This document shows positions 217 to 50,339 of a DNA stretch of 64,000 bases, piece by piece. The DNA is from Firmicutes bacterium M10-2. Its GTDB lineage: Bacteria; Bacillota_I; Bacilli_A; Erysipelotrichales; Erysipelotrichaceae. Within the stretch, counting starts at the first letter, position 1. The number at the start of each line of letters is the position of its first letter. The position numbers and the translations under genes were made by a program. The notes beneath the pieces were generated by a model, which was not told the origin of the DNA, ran no database searches, and saw nothing but the letters and a program-made list of their open reading frames with translations. The stretch spans positions 275,122-339,121 of the forward strand of contig KE159692.1 of NCBI GenBank assembly GCA_000403415.2. The letters are read 5' to 3'.

Positions 217-2844
217 CTACCTACTTTGTATAGCCGCCTGAGCAGCAGCCAAACGCGCAATTGGGACACGATAAGGCGAACATGAAACATAGTCCAAGCC
301 GACTTTATCGACAAAGTGGATCGAAGCAGGATCTCCACCATGTTCACCGCACACGCCAAGCTTGATGTCAGGACGTGTTTGACGACCAAGGTTCGCTGCC
401 ATTTCGACAAGTTTTCCGACACCGTTTTGGTCTAAACGGGCAAATGGGTCGTTTTCGTAAATTTTTGCCGAATAATATTGAGGTAGGAATTTACCCGCAT
501 CATCACGAGAGAATCCGAATGTCAGCTGAGTTAAATCGTTTGTTCCAAATGAGAAGAATTCCGCTTCTTTTGCGATTTCATCCGCAAGAAGCGCTGCACG
601 AGGAACTTCGATCATCGTACCAACATGATATTTCATATCCGACCCGGCTTCTTTGATAATTTCATCTGCTGTTGTCGTTACAATCTTCTTCACATATTTC
701 AATTCGGCAAGATCTCCGATTAACGGAAGCATAATTTCAGGAACAATATTCCATTCTGGATGATTTTTTTGTACATTCAAAGCAGCTTTGATGACAGCGG
801 CTGTCTGCATTTTTGCGATACCTGGATTGGAAACAGCCAAACGAGATCCACGATGCCCCATCATAGGATTCACTTCATGGAGGTTGGAAATCACTTGATT
901 CAATTCATCTTCGCTAATATTCATTTCCACAGCAAGATCCACAATATCATCCGGGTTCGTCGGAACAAATTCATGCAAAGGTGGATCGAGGTAACGAATC
1001 GTCACCGGACGACCTTCCATGGCTTCGTAAATTCCTTCGAAGTCTTTTTGCTGCATAGGTTCCAATTTATCCAATGCCGCTTTCATTTGATCATCTGTTT
1101 TTGCAACGATCATTTCACGAATCGCTTTGATCTTATCGCCTTCAAAGAACATATGTTCTGTACGAACAAGCCCTATACCTTCAGCACCAAACGCTACAGC
1201 TTGGGCTGCATCGCGAGGGGTATCGGCATTTGTACGAATCTTTAAACGGCGCCGTTGATCAGCCCATTCCATGAAGCGTTCGAAATCACCTGAAATTTTC
1301 GCAGGAACAGTTTTGATTGCTTCGCCGTACACATTTCCTGTCGAACCATCAATTGAGATCCAATCTCCGCGGTTGAAACGTTTATCGCCAATTACGAAGT
1401 ATCCTTCGTCATCATGCATTTCGATATCTCCTGCGCCGGATACACAGCAAGCTCCCATGCCACGGGCAACGACAGCTGCGTGGCTCGTCATACCTCCGCG
1501 CACTGTAAGGATACCTCGAGAAACTGCCATCCCTTCGATATCTTCCGGAGATGTTTCCAAACGAACAAGGATCACTTTTTTACCTTTTTCAGCTTCTTCT
1601 TTTGCTTCATCGGCCGAGAACACGATTTGTCCGGAACCGGCACCAGGCGATGCAGGAAGAGCGGATGTAACAACTTCAGCAGCTGCCAAAGCATCTGCAT
1701 CAAACATTGGGTGCAGCAAAGAATCAAGTTGCTGCGGTTCAACCATCATCAATGCTTCATCTGTATTGATTAAACCTTCATCAACCATGTCGCAAGCAAT
1801 CTTCAAAGCCGCTTGAGCTGTCCGCTTTCCGTTACGAGTCTGAAGCATGAACAATTTACCGTTTTCGATGGTAAATTCCATATCTTGCATATTTTTATAA
1901 TGATTTTCAAGTTTAGAACAAATATTGACAAATTGATCATAAGCCGTTGGCGATATTTCTTTTAACTGATCGATCTTTTGAGGCGTACGAACTCCAGCAA
2001 CTACGTCCTCACCTTGTGCATTCATCAAGAATTCACCATACAGTTTATTTTCACCTGTTGCAGGGTTTCTCGTAAACGCAACCCCTGTTCCACAGTCTTC
2101 GCCCATATTGCCGAATACCATCATTTGAACATTGACAGCTGTTCCCCAATCTCCTGGGATATCATTCATACGGCGATAGTAAATCGCACGATCATTGTTC
2201 CATGATCTGAACACCGCTTCGATGGCTTCCATCATTTGCTGTTTTGGATCGGTCGGGAAATCTTCTCCCAGACCTTCATGATAGAACTCTTTAAAACGTT
2301 TTACCAGCTCTTTCATGTCATCAGCAGTGAGCTCAAGGTCATCTTTGATTCCTTTTTCCGCCTTTAATTCATCAATGATTTCTTCAAAACGTTTTTTTGA
2401 TAATCCTTTGACAACATCCGCAAACATCTGGATGAAACGACGATATGAATCATATGCGAAACGTGGATTTCCACTCTTTTGAGCAATCGTTTCAGCAACC
2501 ACATCGTTAATTCCCAAATTCAAGATCGTATCCATCATTCCAGGCATACTTGCCCGGGCTCCAGAACGAACGGAAACGAGCAGCGGATTTTCCGCATCAC
2601 CGAATTTTTTTCCGGTTTCTTCTTCTAGTTTTGCGAGATATTCCATGATCTGCGCTTTAATTTCGTCATTGATCACTTCTTCATCCTCATAATATTGATT
2701 ACAAGCCTCGGTTGTGATCGTGAACCCATTCGGGACCGGCATTCCCAATTTGCTCATCTCTGCTAGGTTCGCCCCTTTTCCACCAAGAAGATTGCGCATG
2801 TTCGCATCGCCTTCGTTAAAAAGGTAGACATACTTTTTTTCCAT
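217..2844 (-). CDS. ppdK: Pyruvate, phosphate dikinase
   Basis: This cytosolic enzyme interconverts pyruvate, ATP and phosphate with PEP, AMP and PPi. The 875-residue length is normal for PPDK. The N-terminal ATP-grasp part holds GGKGANLAEMSKLG. The central phosphohistidine domain has GGMTSHAAVVARGMG with the catalytic His. The C-terminal TIM-barrel PEP-binding part ends near GVCGEHGGDP. The start at 2844 follows GGAGG at 12-nt spacing; an in-frame upstream Met lacks such a site. A CcpA-type cre site overlaps the promoter region, so carbon catabolite control is likely. The gene is monocistronic, between two terminators. Confidence 0.96.
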   Translation of the reverse strand: MEKKYVYLFNEGDANMRNLLGGKGANLAEMSKLGMPVPNGFTITTEACNQYYEDEEVINDEIKAQIMEYLAKLEEETGKKFGDAENPLLVSVRSGARASMPGMMDTILNLGINDVVAETIAQKSGNPRFAYDSYRRFIQMFADVVKGLSKKRFEEIIDELKAEKGIKDDLELTADDMKELVKRFKEFYHEGLGEDFPTDPKQQMMEAIEAVFRSWNNDRAIYYRRMNDIPGDWGTAVNVQMMVFGNMGEDCGTGVAFTRNPATGENKLYGEFLMNAQGEDVVAGVRTPQKIDQLKEISPTAYDQFVNICSKLENHYKNMQDMEFTIENGKLFMLQTRNGKRTAQAALKIACDMVDEGLINTDEALMMVEPQQLDSLLHPMFDADALAAAEVVTSALPASPGAGSGQIVFSADEAKEEAEKGKKVILVRLETSPEDIEGMAVSRGILTVRGGMTSHAAVVARGMGACCVSGAGDIEMHDDEGYFVIGDKRFNRGDWISIDGSTGNVYGEAIKTVPAKISGDFERFMEWADQRRRLKIRTNADTPRDAAQAVAFGAEGIGLVRTEHMFFEGDKIKAIREMIVAKTDDQMKAALDKLEPMQQKDFEGIYEAMEGRPVTIRYLDPPLHEFVPTNPDDIVDLAVEMNISEDELNQVISNLHEVNPMMGHRGSRLAVSNPGIAKMQTAAVIKAALNVQKNHPEWNIVPEIMLPLIGDLAELKYVKKIVTTTADEIIKEAGSDMKYHVGTMIEVPRAALLADEIAKEAEFFSFGTNDLTQLTFGFSRDDAGKFLPQYYSAKIYENDPFARLDQNGVGKLVEMAANLGRQTRPDIKLGVCGEHGGDPASIHFVDKVGLDYVSCSPYRVPIARLAAAQAAIQSR

Positions 2845-2877
2845 GACTTTTCCTCCCATACATTGTAAATAGATTTT

Positions 2878-2905
2878 TGTAACCGTTTACATCATAAGGA
2901 GTATA
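2878..2905 (-). promoter_or_regulatory. ppdK promoter with cre (CcpA) operator
   Basis: On the minus strand a TATACT -10 box (2900-2905) is followed by TGTAAACGGTTACA (2878-2891), which matches the cre consensus TGNNANCGNTNNCA at every fixed base. The cre lies at about +8 to +22, a position where CcpA usually represses. The -35 box is weak. Confidence 0.65.
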
Positions 2906-2930
2906 ACACATTATGTGAAAACTGACCATA

Positions 2931-2959
2931 AAAAAAGCAGAAATTTTCATTTCTGCTTT
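2931..2959 (-). terminator. Rho-independent terminator of spx
   Basis: An 11-bp perfect stem (AAAGCAGAAAT/ATTTCTGCTTT) with a 4-nt loop and a minus-strand T run lies 5 bp beyond the spx-like stop codon. Confidence 0.85.
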
Positions 2960-2963
2960 CATT

Positions 2964-3428
2964 TCATAAAAGATCATTCATAAGCAATCCATCCGAATCC
3001 GGATTTTTCCGAACATTGATGCAAAGTTCTAAGTTCGAACAGGATGCCGGACAACGATCTTCGACTTTCAGGCGAATATGTGCCGGCGTCAAAGATGTGA
3101 TCTCTTCTTCATCAAATCCAACGACTACACTATTTTTCGATAATATAATCGGTCTTTTCAAAACAGATGGATTATTTTGGATCAAACGAATCAATTCGTT
3201 CATGGACATATCTTCTATATTTTTATTCAACAAACGATAACTTTTCGATCGTATAGAAATAATATCGCTTGTTCCGTTTTCGCATCGCGAAAGCAAGAAC
3301 TTAATTTCATCTTCACGCATCAAAGTCGTAAATATATTCTTTTCGATAAATTCAATATGCTTGTCTTTCAACCATTGTTTCGCCTTGCGGCAGCTTGCAC
3401 ATCCCGAAGATGTATAGAGAATTAGCAT
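2964..3428 (-). CDS. Spx/ArsC-family regulatory protein
   Basis: A thioredoxin-fold Spx/ArsC-family protein; Spx proteins bind the RNA polymerase alpha C-terminal domain and redirect transcription under disulfide stress. The N-terminal redox motif CASC (residues 10-13) is the CXXC switch of Spx. The LKRPIILSKNSVVVGFDEEE stretch is the typical Spx/ArsC core. At 154 residues it is longer than usual Spx (about 130). The extra C-terminal tail is Cys-rich (CPASCSNLELC near residues 129-139). The start follows AGGAGGTTTT. It has its own promoter and terminator, and is divergent from trpS. Confidence 0.85.
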   Translation of the reverse strand: MLILYTSSGCASCRKAKQWLKDKHIEFIEKNIFTTLMREDEIKFLLSRCENGTSDIISIRSKSYRLLNKNIEDMSMNELIRLIQNNPSVLKRPIILSKNSVVVGFDEEEITSLTPAHIRLKVEDRCPASCSNLELCINVRKNPDSDGLLMNDLL

Positions 3429-20311: not shown

Positions 20312-21562
20312 TTATGTTGTTTGTAATCTTGTTTCTGTCAGGTATTTTTTGGATTTTTCCAATAACTTGAGTTTTTTGTAGCTTATGCTGCCATTCTTTA
20401 CTTTTACACCTGTTAATGTACGTATGTCAAAATATCCTGTCTTTCTTCTTCCGAATATGAAATATTCGTTATTTTGATATTGTACTTTATCAAATAGCCG
20501 ATATCTGTGTACAACGTATTCAGCCTGATTACGTTTCCGTATACCATGTTTGGTTGGTTTGGTTTTGTGTATTTGTCTGTTATGACAGCGCACCTTCTTT
20601 TGATAGTAATAATATGGCAATGGTTCTGCTTTCGGATTTTTCGAAATACATCTTGCATCTACATAATGCTCTTTCGGAAGATTGTTCCCAATACGGGTGT
20701 TCTTGGTGATGTATCCGTACGTCATGTGAACATCCGGGTATATGTTTTTCAGCATATCATAGCATGACCATCGCATGATTCCCATGAAGGCGGCATCTTT
20801 GAATGACATACCGCGTTTGATTGTTTTTGGTAATATTACTTTTCCGTTATGATATCCGGTATGACAGGTTTCACATAGTGTAATCAGATTGTTTGGTGCA
20901 TTGCCGCCAGTCTGTCTGGATTCTATATGATGGACATTTAAAATGTTATCTTTCGAACGTCCTTTACAGCATTGGCAGGTGTGGTTATCACGGAATAATA
21001 CGTATTCGCGTACATTCCAAAAATCAAGCTGTTCACCTTTTTGGTATTGTACACCATGAATATCCGGGTGTTTGATTTTTTGGATGTCAAAACTTGCCGT
21101 TTCAATGAGAATGGTTTTTGTCGGCAGTAGTTTATGGACGTTTGCAATAACCGTTAAATGACATTGTATTCTCTGCCGGATGCTTGGTGCTAACCATCCC
21201 GGTTTCCTGCTATGTGTCCGGTTTTGAAAGCGTGGCTTGCGATATCGTGTTTTACGGCTTCTACGTGAACGTCTTAATTCGCGTCTGGCAGCAAGCAGTT
21301 TTACAATGTCATTACGGAGTTCTATTTCTGCAGCATAAAGTTCCTTTTGCTTGGTTGTTGCAGAGAGTCCGATCTGTTTACTGCCGGCGTCTACGCCCAG
21401 TGTAATGTCTTGTGTATAATGTGTACTGTTATATAGTAACTGAATTGTGAACGGACAGCGCTTTATAACTTTTGCTTTGCCTGATTTGAGTAAATGTCTT
21501 ACTTTACCATGCCGTTCGGTTGGCATAAGCGGCTGTCCTGATTGATCCAATACGTATACCAT
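20312..21562 (-). CDS. iscB: IscB RNA-guided nuclease
   Basis: IscB is the compact Cas9 ancestor, an omegaRNA-guided DNA nuclease with RuvC and HNH domains. The 416-residue protein begins with the PLMP domain (PLMP at 11-14). The split RuvC residues are visible: Asp58 in GVDAGSKQIG, Glu154 in ILIETASF and Asp302 in HYVDARC. An Arg-rich bridge helix covers 93-120. The inserted HNH (about 176-245) has CxxC pairs and HHIESRQTGGN..N. All catalytic residues seem present, so it is probably active. The start lies in the palindrome CCATTCGAATGG, behind AAAGGAG. Confidence 0.93.
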   Translation of the reverse strand: MVYVLDQSGQPLMPTERHGKVRHLLKSGKAKVIKRCPFTIQLLYNSTHYTQDITLGVDAGSKQIGLSATTKQKELYAAEIELRNDIVKLLAARRELRRSRRSRKTRYRKPRFQNRTHSRKPGWLAPSIRQRIQCHLTVIANVHKLLPTKTILIETASFDIQKIKHPDIHGVQYQKGEQLDFWNVREYVLFRDNHTCQCCKGRSKDNILNVHHIESRQTGGNAPNNLITLCETCHTGYHNGKVILPKTIKRGMSFKDAAFMGIMRWSCYDMLKNIYPDVHMTYGYITKNTRIGNNLPKEHYVDARCISKNPKAEPLPYYYYQKKVRCHNRQIHKTKPTKHGIRKRNQAEYVVHRYRLFDKVQYQNNEYFIFGRRKTGYFDIRTLTGVKVKNGSISYKKLKLLEKSKKYLTETRLQTT

Positions 21563-21850
21563 TCGAATGGCACTCCTTTCTTGATAATCGAATTATAACG
21601 CAGTCTACATTATGGAATAACATAGACTGTAAGCAGCCTTCGCCAATGTTATGTAAGGTTTTAAGACGAAGTCTTTGACTGACGCACGGATCCTACCCCT
21701 CAGATCGGTTTAACGACAGTCCTTAGAGCAGTGAGCTAGGCTGTATACTCACCGGTAACTATTTACGGTTGATAAGTATCATTCCGCTATTCTTACATAA
21801 CGTAGCCCGTTAAGGCTTAGGCTAGTCAATTATGGACTTTTGCAAGCCCA
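21563..21850 (-). ncRNA. Predicted omegaRNA of IscB
   Basis: IscB systems encode the guide RNA just upstream of iscB in the same sense. This 288-bp gap has no ORF and is rich in structure. A long-range pair GTTATGTAAG/CTTACATAAC joins 21793-21802 and 21644-21653. A 3' hairpin AGTCTA/TAGACT lies at 21602-21629, and the sequence runs into the iscB Shine-Dalgarno. By analogy the guide is at the 5' end near 21850-21870, in or beside the methyltransferase 3' end. Exact ends cannot be fixed by eye. Confidence 0.65.
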
Positions 21851-22597
21851 TTACTCTTTAGAGTATGGGTGGATTGACTTTCTCAACTCCTTATTTAATT
21901 TATCAAATGCGAAGATTGCGGTCGAACTCGCTGTGTCAAGAGCATTGCGATATTCACGTCCGTATTGGATATATACGTTGTAATCGCTATGAGAAAGAAT
22001 TTTTTTAGAAAGTCCTCTCATCGCTCCTCCTACGGCGATGCAGCACGTTTTCGGATAGCGAAACGTAGAGAGCGGAAGAGCATCCTTGCGGTAAGCGCAA
22101 ATCAGCGGAATATGATGCTTTTGTAAATATTGAATACATTGCTCTTCGCTTGCGTAAGCGATATCGAGTTTTTCAAAGGCTCCTGCACTCGCTTTTAAGA
22201 TCGTATCGCTGGCATTGGACCAATCTCTTGTCGGCAAGATAAGCAATGTTGCTCCGGCTGCGTAAATTGTACGGCATATGCTTCCTAGATTATACGGATC
22301 TTCGAGCCCTTCGACATAAAAGATGGTCCCTTTCTTTTTCGAAATCGTGTCGATCGTTGGGATGTACAAATCTTCTGCCTCCAAAAGCATGCCTCCGTGC
22401 TGTTTGGATCGGGCCAGTTCATCCATTTGTTCTCGGCGCATTGGAATTACTTGGATCCCTTTCTTTTTTGCTAAATGAATAATGTACGAAAAATCCTTTG
22501 TTCGTTTGTTCGGATCAATATAAAGTGGTCCGGCTTTTCGTTTTCCTGCTTCTAAGATTGCTTTGCAGGAAATTGTTCCTTGATAAATTTTGTTCAT
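21851..22597 (-). CDS. TrmH/SpoU-family RNA methyltransferase
   Basis: A SPOUT-class 2'-O-methyltransferase of rRNA or tRNA. The C-terminal knot has FYVEGLEDPYNLGSICRTIYAAG, CCIAVGGAMRGLS and VYIQYGREYRNALDTASSTAI. The usual motif 3 Asn/Leu-S pattern is slightly altered. The start MNKIYQG at 22597 gives 248 residues; an in-frame Met five codons upstream is weaker. The last residues lie exactly at the IscB element border and may be supplied by the element. Confidence 0.85.
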   Translation of the reverse strand: MNKIYQGTISCKAILEAGKRKAGPLYIDPNKRTKDFSYIIHLAKKKGIQVIPMRREQMDELARSKQHGGMLLEAEDLYIPTIDTISKKKGTIFYVEGLEDPYNLGSICRTIYAAGATLLILPTRDWSNASDTILKASAGAFEKLDIAYASEEQCIQYLQKHHIPLICAYRKDALPLSTFRYPKTCCIAVGGAMRGLSKKILSHSDYNVYIQYGREYRNALDTASSTAIFAFDKLNKELRKSIHPYSKE

Positions 22598-47514: not shown

Positions 47515-47883
47515 CTAGATGATGCTTCCGATCAGCGAAGATAAGACAGCTATAAAAGCCTGGCCACAAAATTCTTTTGCCTTTTCCATTCGGCTATTCG
47601 TATTAAGATACCCGACTCCCTCATAAGTGATCTTATAAGGAGGATCGGTCTCAATATATAGGCCAACATCTTTCGTCCGGTTCCGCAGAATTGCGAAGCC
47701 CTCAATATAACCCTTCTCAATCAGCGTTGCGACGATCTCCATCCAATATCTTTTAGGGATTGTCATCAATTTAGAATCCCATGAAAAATCCTCTAATACC
47801 GGAGTTTTGCCGTTCTTCATACATTCGTAGAGGTACCGCAAAATCTTATAAATCAATATATCCATGTCATTATTCGCCATCAA
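47515..47883 (-). CDS. YjcQ-like winged-helix protein
   Basis: 122 residues: DILIYKILRYLYECMKNGKT, YWMEIVATLIEKGYIEGFAI, KITYEGVGYLNTNSRMEKAK. This matches the YjcQ family, phage/chromosomal proteins with a winged-helix-like fold and unknown role. The C-terminal 20 residues are hydrophobic. It starts within the end of the previous small gene. Confidence 0.75.
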   Translation of the reverse strand: MMANNDMDILIYKILRYLYECMKNGKTPVLEDFSWDSKLMTIPKRYWMEIVATLIEKGYIEGFAILRNRTKDVGLYIETDPPYKITYEGVGYLNTNSRMEKAKEFCGQAFIAVLSSLIGSII

Positions 47884-48050: not shown

Positions 48051-50339
48051 TTATTTGATGCGGTGGGTAGTTATCAGTCTGATTTTATCTTCACCTACAT
48101 CTTGACTCCAAACAACTTGAAATTTTTTCTTTTTTTCTACACCTAACATCATGTTAACAGAAAACCGTTTACCATATTCTGTTTTTTTTCTATCATACGA
48201 AGATTTGACAACCTGTTCAAGAATATCGTTCTCCAATTGCCGCCAATTTTCCTGCGAATACCCTACATCAAAAAATTCTTTAGCGTGTTTTGCCCCTTCT
48301 TTTAGCATATATTTTTTAATCTTATCAGGGTGAATGTAGTGATCCTTGGAAAGCCTATTGTGATCGTATTCATCTAGCTTTTTCCAATCCTTCCAGCTCA
48401 GTCCGTGCTTGTCATATGTTTCCGACCACCCATCGAACAGCTTCACTTCTTCATCGCTGACTCCGAAGTCGGTACGCTCCATATAGGCGCTTGTGCTGCA
48501 CCGACAGTTGCTAGTAATAACTCCATTGGCAATGTATAATGTCGATAGAGAGGAGGCGTCATAAACATGCCCTTTATAAAATCTAACATCAACGCTGACG
48601 ATGTCATCAAAATGTATAAATCCGGTAAAACCACTAAGGAAATTGCTAATTTCTTCGGAGTTGGTGCCCGCAAAATAACCGAAATCGCTAGTTCTGTCGG
48701 ATATACTCCCACACCTATTCAAAATAGTGTTGATATTGGACTCGTCGTTTCGCTTTATAAATCTGGCGTTAGTCAAAACGCAATCGCCAAACAGCTTGGA
48801 GTTAGCCGATCCGTTATTAGGAACCGTCTTTGCAAGGCGGGCGTAATAATCAGAGGGCCTGCGGAAGCCAACCAACTCATGATGAGTAAGCGCACGCCCG
48901 AAGAGAACGCTAGAAACTCTCGAGCTGCTCATGATGCCGTCCGCAACAAGCCCAAGACCCACCAACAACTCTGCAATCATGCACTTGGCGTTCAAAACGC
49001 TTTCACTTCCTTCAAGAGTCCTTATGAACAAGATATCGCCGATGAGCTTATTAATCGCGGAATTAAATTTGTTCCTCAACTCGCTGTTGATAAATACAAT
49101 ATCGACTTTGCTATCGGGAATAACATCGCCCTTGAGGTCTTCGGCGGAAATTGGCACGCTAAAGGTAGGCACCGAGCTAGATTTGCTGAGCGCAGCAAAA
49201 AGCTTTTCGATAGTGGGTACGCCATTGTTATTTGTTGGATTGGTTTCAACCATAGATTTAACCCGTCCGCAATAGTTGACTACCTTATCTCCCTTGATAA
49301 GGTTCTTTGCTCTGACCCATCCGCGCGCCGTAAGCACTATGTGATTGGGGGTCACGGAAAGCCTTGTTCCATTGGAAAGTCCAAGCTCAACTACATTTCC
49401 TGAATATTCACTTCTCATAATCGCTTCTATGTCAGGAGCGATTATTTTTGTATCAGGAAGCACACAATTTGGATGCATAGGCGGGGCATTCACGCCTGGC
49501 TGCATATCCTCCATGCCAAAATGTTTCCCGTTGATCGCTAAACAATGCGGGCAAGCCGTCCCTAGGGAATGGAACGTATATTGATCGAATCCGTTTTCTT
49601 CAAATGACCTATGCTGCGCTTCCGTTTGAACCCGTGCCATTTCTGTGATCATCAAACGGTTCGCGTTATACTCGCTCGATTTCACCTTTTTCCGAAGCGT
49701 ACGCGCCAATTCTTTCGGATTCCGACCTTGGATAAGGCCTGTCGATAAAAGGCTTCCCAGCTCGTTTCTGAGCGTGTCCTGATGCTTCCAGATCCGGTCG
49801 CTCCAAGTCGCGTTGTGAAAGCTGGCGTTCACGATCGAATGTGCGTACCGGGCGTTGTCATGGACCGTACGACCCAATATACCGGCTTGCCGTTTGAACG
49901 TCTCGATCGTGCGCTTTGTCAACTTCTCTTCAAAGAACCGCTGCAGCTCGTCGAAGCCGCCAACCAGATGCATCCCGATGTTCGCTTTCAACAGCTCCAA
50001 CCGATTCACCTTCATTGTGAGGTTGTACAGGCGCATTTCCTCGTTTGCCTGGTCAGAAAAGTTTTTCTCGGCCACATACTTTTTAGCAAGCTCGGCATAC
50101 GTTTGTATATCCAGTTTAGAGACCCTTTTTTTCGCTTCTGCATAGGTGATCCCCTCTTTTGTGGCATATCGAGTGTAGAAATTATTGATCTGGATCTCGA
50201 TTTCATTCATCATCTGTCGGTAGATGCGTTCGATTTCTTGGCTATATGCCTTCTCTTCTTGGATATTGTGCTTCCGCTGCTCTTCTTCCCGCTCGCGCCA
50301 ATAGTCGGCGCTATTTTTCGATTCCGGCTTCGCCATCAT
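48051..50339 (-). CDS. Minor head protein (MuF/SPP1 gp7-like) interrupted by an intein
   Basis: 762 codons, of which 320 are an intein (residues 292-611). The spliced product would be 442 residues: helical N-terminus, MuF core (VQTEAQHRSFEENGFDQYTF, LGTACPHCLAINGKHF) and the conserved end PPMHPN-CRCSTSAY, exactly where the intein sits. MuF proteins enter the capsid with the portal and help ejection. The start overlaps the portal stop. The intein lies at the family's most conserved motif, as inteins tend to do. Confidence 0.92.
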   Translation of the reverse strand: MMAKPESKNSADYWREREEEQRKHNIQEEKAYSQEIERIYRQMMNEIEIQINNFYTRYATKEGITYAEAKKRVSKLDIQTYAELAKKYVAEKNFSDQANEEMRLYNLTMKVNRLELLKANIGMHLVGGFDELQRFFEEKLTKRTIETFKRQAGILGRTVHDNARYAHSIVNASFHNATWSDRIWKHQDTLRNELGSLLSTGLIQGRNPKELARTLRKKVKSSEYNANRLMITEMARVQTEAQHRSFEENGFDQYTFHSLGTACPHCLAINGKHFGMEDMQPGVNAPPMHPNCVLPDTKIIAPDIEAIMRSEYSGNVVELGLSNGTRLSVTPNHIVLTARGWVRAKNLIKGDKVVNYCGRVKSMVETNPTNNNGVPTIEKLFAALSKSSSVPTFSVPISAEDLKGDVIPDSKVDIVFINSELRNKFNSAINKLIGDILFIRTLEGSESVLNAKCMIAELLVGLGLVADGIMSSSRVSSVLFGRALTHHELVGFRRPSDYYARLAKTVPNNGSANSKLFGDCVLTNARFIKRNDESNINTILNRCGSISDRTSDFGYFAGTNSEEISNFLSGFTGFIHFDDIVSVDVRFYKGHVYDASSLSTLYIANGVITSNCRCSTSAYMERTDFGVSDEEVKLFDGWSETYDKHGLSWKDWKKLDEYDHNRLSKDHYIHPDKIKKYMLKEGAKHAKEFFDVGYSQENWRQLENDILEQVVKSSYDRKKTEYGKRFSVNMMLGVEKKKKFQVVWSQDVGEDKIRLITTHRIK
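48507..49466 (-). other. Intein in the MuF gene
   Basis: Starts at Cys292 (CVLPDTKIIAPD, block A) after extein Asn291. Block B is SVTPNHIVLTARGWVRAKN with the TxxH motif. Block F is VYDASSLSTLYIANG. It ends at Asn611 (VITSN, block G), with extein Cys612. The penultimate residue is Ser instead of the usual His. About 220 residues between blocks B and F show no LAGLIDADG endonuclease in the sense frame; this stretch is the mirror of the antisense gene at 48567-49403. Confidence 0.9.
48567..49403 (+). CDS. Antisense homing endonuclease nested in the intein (Vsr/EDxHD-like)
   Basis: 278 residues on the strand opposite to the intein, wholly inside it. Two helix-turn-helix units (12-40, TTKEIANFFGVGARKITEIA; 57-90, SQNAIAKQLGVSRSVIRNRL) are followed by a Vsr/DUF559-like nuclease core: Glu154 in SPYEQDIADEL, Asp180 in KYNIDFAI, Glu190 and His197 in ALEVFGGNWHA, and KKLFDSGYAIVICW. 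The ATG follows AGGAGG (48551-48556) and a TATAAT box lies at 48535-48540, all within intein codons. This would be the homing function missing from the sense frame. Confidence 0.88.
   Translation: MPFIKSNINADDVIKMYKSGKTTKEIANFFGVGARKITEIASSVGYTPTPIQNSVDIGLVVSLYKSGVSQNAIAKQLGVSRSVIRNRLCKAGVIIRGPAEANQLMMSKRTPEENARNSRAAHDAVRNKPKTHQQLCNHALGVQNAFTSFKSPYEQDIADELINRGIKFVPQLAVDKYNIDFAIGNNIALEVFGGNWHAKGRHRARFAERSKKLFDSGYAIVICWIGFNHRFNPSAIVDYLISLDKVLCSDPSARRKHYVIGGHGKPCSIGKSKLNYIS

Follow-up and report, generated by a model that had tools for sequence, protein, structure and literature searches.

A predicted homing endonuclease encoded antisense to the intein of a phage MuF-like head protein gene

According to reviews, an intein and its nuclease are made as a single fused translation product (PMC3943268). 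How, then, should one understand an intein that shows no nuclease in its own frame and faces a long open reading frame (ORF) on the other strand? Such an intein interrupts the gene of a MuF-like minor head protein, of the phage SPP1 gp7 family, in Firmicutes bacterium M10-2 (GCA_000403415.2). The whole stretch analyzed here, a 64-kb window, spans positions 275,122-339,121 of the forward strand of contig KE159692.1, and all coordinates given for this locus are those of the window (Table 1). An earlier reading of the window from its letters alone (hereafter, the sequence-only reading) had claimed a complete 278-residue gene opposite the intein, coding for a homing endonuclease. The ORF is exactly as described, and we consider it highly probable (about 0.9) that the element is a mobile intein and that its homing endonuclease, instead of being fused in frame, is encoded by the other strand.

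The intein and the protein encoded opposite to it

In Pfam searches the antisense protein matches the Vsr-like restriction endonuclease family PF18741 (E-value = 6.8e-9, just below the curated cut-off) and, through a tandem helix-turn-helix (HTH) region, PF02796 (E-value = 2.1e-8). In an alignment of 95 homologues Glu154, Tyr177, Asn178, Asp180 and Glu190 are invariant and His197 is conserved in at least 90% of the sequences; the catalytic Glu, Asp and His of the EDxHD signature are present. The alignment profile retrieved the endonuclease I-Bth0305I (3r3p) in a PDB profile search with an E-value of 1.2e-4. The AlphaFold model of the nuclease has a mean pLDDT of 93.5, and its best PDB match according to Foldseek is again 3r3p (E-value = 3.4e-3, probability 1.00). 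Using VIA-align, the nuclease domain could be aligned with DNA-bound Vsr (1cw0, Z-score 10.3) and with I-Bth0305I (Z-score 9.5), and the N-terminus with HTH proteins. The comparison with Vsr/EDxHD nucleases that the sequence-only reading had suggested thus leads to the Vsr/I-Bth0305I fold by profile, Foldseek and VIA-align alike, and Pfam, PDB profiles, structure and conservation agree on the two HTH units and on the nuclease core with the four residues it had singled out (Glu154, Asp180, Glu190 and His197). A shorter form of the nuclease (~237 aa), devoid of the first HTH unit, is found at L009, L043, L049, L050 and L059 (L numbers are labels of individual loci collected in this analysis), and the inteins of these loci are correspondingly ~47 aa shorter.

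The window intein has the junctions HPN/C upstream and TSN/CRC downstream. It starts with CVLPDT, has TPNH (block B) at aa 39 and GHVY (block F) at aa 299, and ends with Asn320 followed by Cys+1; the splicing motifs of mobile inteins, namely Cys1, block B TxNH, block F, the terminal Asn and the +1 Cys, are all in place. Its own frame gave no match to a nuclease in Pfam, TIGR and PHROG profile searches, in line with the claim that the intein lacks an endonuclease of its own. No Rfam intron match, including group I, was found anywhere in the 64-kb window, and the insertion is an open-frame intein. The nuclease and intein frames overlap antisense over ~840 bp, coding throughout, and are in exact codon register, antisense codon position 1 facing intein position 3. 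The sense product of the intein is modelled confidently at its ends alone; pLDDT stays below 50 over residues 128-281, which face the half of the nuclease with the HTH units.

Protein-level selection and expression signals

An alignment of 25 sequences proved too diverse for a pattern search, and smaller alignments were used. Substitutions in the overlap peak at antisense position 3, which is sense position 1, in 13 of 13 independent locus pairs, and in the flanking single-coding MuF sequence they peak at sense position 3, also in 13 of 13 pairs. Single-hit codon changes were silent in the nuclease and altering in the intein in 518 cases, compared to 240 of the reverse kind, where a 1:1 proportion is expected (p = 1.7e-24; 13/13 pairs). 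The ratio of position-3 to position-1 changes reaches 2.0 at nuclease residues 166-180, around Asp180; it drops to 0.77 at residues 1-15, which face block F, and to 0.65 at residues 241-255, which face the stretch after block B. Thus, the middle of the overlap is ruled by the nuclease and its ends by the intein. Protein-level selection is visible on both strands, the plus strand included, which is the opposite of selection on the minus strand only, the outcome that the sequence-only reading had named as speaking against it.

In this register, TTA and CTA (Leu) and TCA (Ser) are the sole codons that create a stop on the opposite strand. The intein frame is kept open all the same: in 140 loci these codons are entirely missing from the nuclease frame, where 979 would be expected from each locus's own codon usage. 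Conversely, the sense linker contains none of them, with 1294 expected. Since all three have synonyms, the register sets no amino-acid constraint, which probably explains its choice.

The nuclease start is the antisense of the conserved block F His codon. This His is encoded by CAT (yielding ATG) in 86 and by CAC (yielding GTG) in 12 of 98 loci, compared to 204:274 at the remaining His positions of these genes (Fisher p = 2.4e-17). Shine-Dalgarno sequences of at least 5 nt precede the gene in 64/98 loci, with 12.9 expected from synonymous resampling, and promoter-like sites are enriched among the loci, 26 of 67 reaching p ≤ 0.05 with 3.4 expected. In the window, a predicted terminator starts 13 nt past the nuclease stop, within the N-terminal codons of the intein, and consists of a 12-bp stem followed by TTTTGT. 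It recurs in the clade of the window with compensatory changes: 22 cells are altered on both sides of the stem, a count reached in 0 of 500 shuffles and mostly far lower in slid controls. As the loci are partly redundant, none of the counts given for these expression signals stands for independent events.

Table 1. Coordinates of the features discussed (window positions unless a locus label is given)
Feature	Position	Strand	Basis or remark
MuF-like minor head protein gene, intein-interrupted	48051..50339	-	TIGR01641 E 3.9e-22, PF04233 E 5e-14, PHROG 115 E 2.4e-109
N-extein	49467-50339	-	
C-extein	48054-48506	-	
Intein, 320 aa, Cys1 (49464-49466) to Asn320 (48507-48509), +1 Cys	48507..49466	-	PF14890 E 3.9e-11; splicing motifs in alignment
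Antisense gene of predicted homing endonuclease, 278 aa, ATG to TGA	48567..49403	+	ORF wholly within intein; homology, selection
First HTH unit, nuclease residues 10-43	48594..48695	+	Pfam HTH matches in two stretches; AlphaFold helices
Second HTH unit, nuclease residues 57-90	48735..48836	+	HTH_7, HTH_28, HTH_23; AlphaFold model
Vsr/EDxHD-like nuclease core, residues 150-255	49014..49331	+	PF18741; residue invariance; I-Bth0305I 3r3p, Vsr 1cw0; Glu154 at 49026, Asp180 at 49104, Glu190 at 49134, His197 at 49155
Shine-Dalgarno AGGAGG of antisense gene	48551..48556	+	within intein codons Asp-Ala-Ser-Ser after GHVY
Intein block F Gly-His-Val-Tyr; His CAT 48567-48569 = antisense ATG	48561..48572	-	CAT bias at that His
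Promoter-like TAGTAA - 17 nt - TATAAT upstream of antisense gene	48512..48540	+	TATAAT at 48535-48540
Predicted intrinsic terminator, 12-bp stem 49417-49445 then TTTTGTATCA	49417..49455	+	covarying stem in relatives
Intein block B TPNH, opposite nuclease C-terminal tail (residues 256-270)	49341..49352	-	substitution bias reverses or vanishes there
LAGLIDADG-like antisense nuclease	L274 2983-3693	-	in same-site MuF intein, Gordonia phages
LAGLIDADG-like antisense nuclease	L277 about 2605-3193	+	in same-site MuF intein, Gordonia phages

Distribution, empty sites and mobility

Using tblastn, matches to the nuclease were found in 127 phage records at an E-value of 1e-5 and in 137 at 1e-3, the hosts being Salmonella, Escherichia, Gordonia, Pseudomonas, Klebsiella, Vibrio and others; in the annotated loci that were fetched, the match is antisense to a MuF/minor head gene nearly without exception. 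Scans of IMG/VR and GTDB yielded further loci from many phyla. The sense frame is fully open, in the same register and within an intein, mostly of MuF, for 141 of 145 distinct nuclease sequences, and the other two minus-strand frames of the set average 9 and 19 stops. N-exteins match Phage_Mu_F in 73 and Phage_min_cap2 in 8 of 99 cases. When the search was made with the sense strand only, using the intein C-terminus as a query, 79 of the 80 MuF inteins retrieved carried the antisense nuclease; the sole exception, L228, is probably truncated, because merely 34 sense residues precede the motif. The survey of other MuF inteins proposed in the sequence-only reading therefore found the same arrangement at 141 loci overall, and not the lack of homologous antisense ORFs that would have told against it. 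The arrangement is widespread in bacterial viruses. Within the taxonomic order of the window's host, a search for close relatives of its nuclease gave a clear match in its own genome only. In Mycobacterium phage Sejanus (L019) and Escherichia phage fEg-Eco06 (L020), inteins with an antisense nuclease seem to occupy positions of the minor head gene other than HPN/CRC (junction contexts VHN/CTIDGKTRPSH and TSTT/CFTAET, respectively); in L020 the nuclease matches in part only.

Intein-less alleles with a precise empty site are abundant. The joined 660-nt flanks of the intein of Gordonia phage Vivi2 gave one uninterrupted match in many near-identical phages, among them Brandonk123, Geodirt and Sanjuju, and a match in two pieces in Nordenberg, Lennon, Sedona and Keitabear. 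Empty and occupied sites likewise coexist in Escherichia Kagunavirus around Snoke, whose authors remarked on the empty site in K1ind2 (PMC6776784). Finally, intein-less relatives of the window MuF (60% and 48% identity) read continuously through the site as HPNCHC and HPICHC. The intein is also more alike between loci than the exteins, as expected from horizontal mobility: the nucleases of the window and L009 are 63% identical and the exteins 19%, the corresponding identities with L043 are 0.60 and 0.26, and similar contrasts are seen with L004, L048, L059 and L180.

The same site also hosts an unrelated antisense nuclease, found in MuF inteins of Gordonia phages Lennon, Nordenberg, Sitar, Thing3 and Barsten. 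It has a FIDGEG motif and matches PHROG 5046 (E-value = 3.6e-15), labelled HNH endonuclease. There is no direct Pfam match for this protein, and its homologue in Cyanophage PP matches LAGLIDADG_1 with an E-value of 0.003, weaker than the curated cut-off. Between Lennon and Barsten the nuclease frame is 92% identical and the sense frame 72%, with 38 nuclease-silent vs 3 sense-silent single changes; the LAGLIDADG-like nuclease is under strong purifying selection. No relatives of it were found in IMG/VR. An unrelated second family in the same arrangement means that antisense encoding has been reached at least twice. In Vividuovirus, near-identical MuF exteins (L014, L028 and L274) contain three quite different inteins at one site, which is empty in other phages; competing elements apparently replace one another there.

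Near full-length free-standing copies of the Vsr-like nuclease gene are present in Acinetobacter phage P1068 (L022, 2390-3283) and in a Thermoleophilia contig (L125, 3477-4172), in both cases convergent with an adjoining intein-less MuF gene. Outside the constraint of an overlap, L022 has acquired 12 codons that would stop a sense frame, and L125 has two. A quick tree places both copies among intein-embedded lineages, and their tails mirror block B in a decayed form (TIL*SNG in L022 vs ILTSNG in L018). These copies are likelier to be escapees from an intein than to represent the original state. L013 and L032, considered as further free-standing nucleases, matched through the HTH repeats alone and were not counted.

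Proposed mechanism, alternatives and related systems

We propose the following scenario. The minus strand would be read as MuF-intein-MuF and the intein would remove itself from the protein, which would leave the capsid gene functional. The plus strand would be expressed independently, as a gene that has a promoter-like site, a Shine-Dalgarno sequence, a start, a stop and a terminator of its own. During mixed infection, its product, with two HTH units and a Vsr/EDxHD-type domain, would recognize and cut intein-less MuF near HPN/CRC, and repair from the intein-bearing copy would insert intein and nuclease jointly. The overlap could be maintained because TTA, CTA and TCA all have synonyms, so that a nuclease of any sequence can face an open intein frame. 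Opposite the HTH units the intein frame would be mostly an unstructured linker, and near either end of the overlap, splicing blocks F and B share their bases with the termini of the nuclease. The data show both coding frames, selection on each of them, their conservation, empty sites and horizontal mobility; transcription, cleavage and homing are predictions.

Several observations weigh against this scenario. Among the invariant and near-invariant columns of the 95 sequences, no conserved Asp after His197 could be singled out as the second Asp of the EDxHD signature. The AGGAGG, ATG and TATAAT noticed in the sequence-only reading do lie inside intein codons, but the TATAAT part is weak on its own: against synonymous resampling the promoter-like site of the window is ordinary (p = 0.16), and a generic scan did not report the TATAAT. 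Terminator-like hairpins over all 141 loci number 26 vs 16 expected, a small excess; the terminator is clear in the window's clade only and is consequently not claimed as a general feature. The length of the ORF is by itself moderately unusual, since reshuffling the intein synonymously 2000 times gave an antisense run of at least 278 codons 25 times (p ~0.0125). Homology at the protein level, conservation at 141 loci and the distribution of substitutions nevertheless exclude a chance ORF.

Another explanation would reverse the roles of the two strands: a conserved insertion domain on the sense strand would yield an open and conserved antisense reading for free. The exact codon register makes such mirror conservation possible, and the sense frame does dominate at nuclease residues 1-15 and 241-255. 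In the middle of the overlap, however, substitutions are silent in the antisense frame and alter the sense frame, and these substitution classes refute a mirror-image artefact. Moreover, it is the antisense and not the sense protein that matches known families and folds well, the free-standing homologue in L022 has no open sense frame, and both start codon and Shine-Dalgarno sequence are selected, which leaves this explanation a vanishingly small probability. A real antisense gene could alternatively encode a nuclease that does not serve homing, and instead cuts competing phages, excludes relatives or regulates through its HTH units. Phage homing endonucleases can double as regulators and act in exclusion, and HTH units dominate the N-terminal half of the protein. 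Yet the gene is nearly always inside an intein, sites are polymorphic among near-identical phages, nuclease and intein are far more alike than the exteins, and an unrelated nuclease family has replaced it at the same site. As all four are predicted by homing, we regard a non-homing role as unlikely. A little less probable still is that the window gene was once active and is now a decaying remnant hitch-hiking in a fixed intein. The homing-cycle model does expect decay after fixation, but in the window ORF, catalytic residues, Shine-Dalgarno sequence, start and terminator have all remained intact, comparisons between relatives reveal purifying selection, and intein-less MuF relatives persist as targets.

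A mobile intein with an antisense homing endonuclease can be compared with several known systems. Split inteins of fractured genes, reportedly described by Dassa et al. in 2009, are said to have a free-standing Vsr-like nuclease gene between the separate genes of the intein halves. They share with our locus the broad nuclease family and an intein-linked yet unfused nuclease, whereas the window intein is in one piece, with the nuclease on its other strand. Canonical inteins containing homing endonucleases, such as PI-SceI and TliVMA (PMC8966425, PMC3943268), likewise are mobile inteins with splicing blocks, a nuclease within the same insertion and empty alleles, but their nuclease is an in-frame fused domain, whereas here a separate antisense gene overlaps the intein codon for codon, blocks B and F included. 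Nuclear group I introns are known to contain antisense nuclease genes, and one of the enzymes, I-DsqI (Dsq.L2066), was shown to cut the empty site (PMC9548176). The analogy with these introns, drawn in the sequence-only reading, is correct in that a nuclease is encoded opposite to the host-gene strand inside a self-splicing element. The I-DsqI system differs in that its host is an RNA intron in rDNA, free of protein-coding overlap, and its gene is eukaryotic, of the His-Cys box type and with a spliceosomal intron. I-Bth0305I (3r3p; PMC3943268) has the same nuclease fold, Glu/Asp/Glu core positions and extended DNA-binding region with HTH; however, it is intron-encoded (3r3p was deposited as 'Mobile intron protein') and not antisense within an intein. 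The free-standing copies beside intein-less MuF genes (L022 and L125) resemble collaborative homing, in which a free-standing endonuclease acts with an endonuclease-less element (PMC2988022), although their position within embedded lineages in the quick tree suggests escape rather than the original state.

Full-text literature searches, with subscription journals mostly outside their coverage, found no description of an antisense nuclease gene in an intein, in agreement with the sequence-only reading, which knew of none. Where some of these inteins have been described (Snoke, PMC6776784; UPWr_S, PMC8425127; vKMB36, PMC11162368), the papers name the intein and not the gene on the opposite strand. 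Inteins are usually classified by the nuclease in their own frame, and those considered here would be filed as having an unexplained insertion. As they have an intact nuclease on the other strand, counts of nuclease-less inteins may be too high. Nuclease-less copies are nearly absent among MuF inteins (1/80), unlike the decay predicted by the homing-cycle model. In addition, a codon-registered overlap with selection readable on both strands and at least 140 natural replicates is a rare model for the origin and persistence of overlapping genes. We see about even chances that inteins have come to carry a nuclease in antisense repeatedly and as a general solution. Such an arrangement would make the nuclease independent of late-gene timing and of a fusion with the splicing domain, and would use the register in which any protein fits opposite an open frame; perhaps it would also bring the capsid gene under antisense control, exerted by the promoter and terminator of the nuclease gene.

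Some features of the window touch the MuF protein and its surroundings. The end of the C-extein (48051-48350, minus strand) corresponds to DUF6883 (PF21814, E-value = 3.8e-13), perhaps a C-terminal domain like those of polymorphic MuF proteins. The MuF gene is followed by a small ORF (47515-47883, minus strand). The PHROG 15127 'head protein' profile aligns over residues 29-618 of the window protein, intein included; thus, the family model itself seems to contain an intein and with it the mirrored nuclease. Elsewhere in the window, a 416-aa IscB-like ORF (20312-21562, minus strand), of the HNH type by eye, has a HEARO RNA (21629-21878, minus strand; Rfam RF02033, 122.6 bits) directly upstream, and region 20312-21878 is probably an IscB/omega-RNA element.

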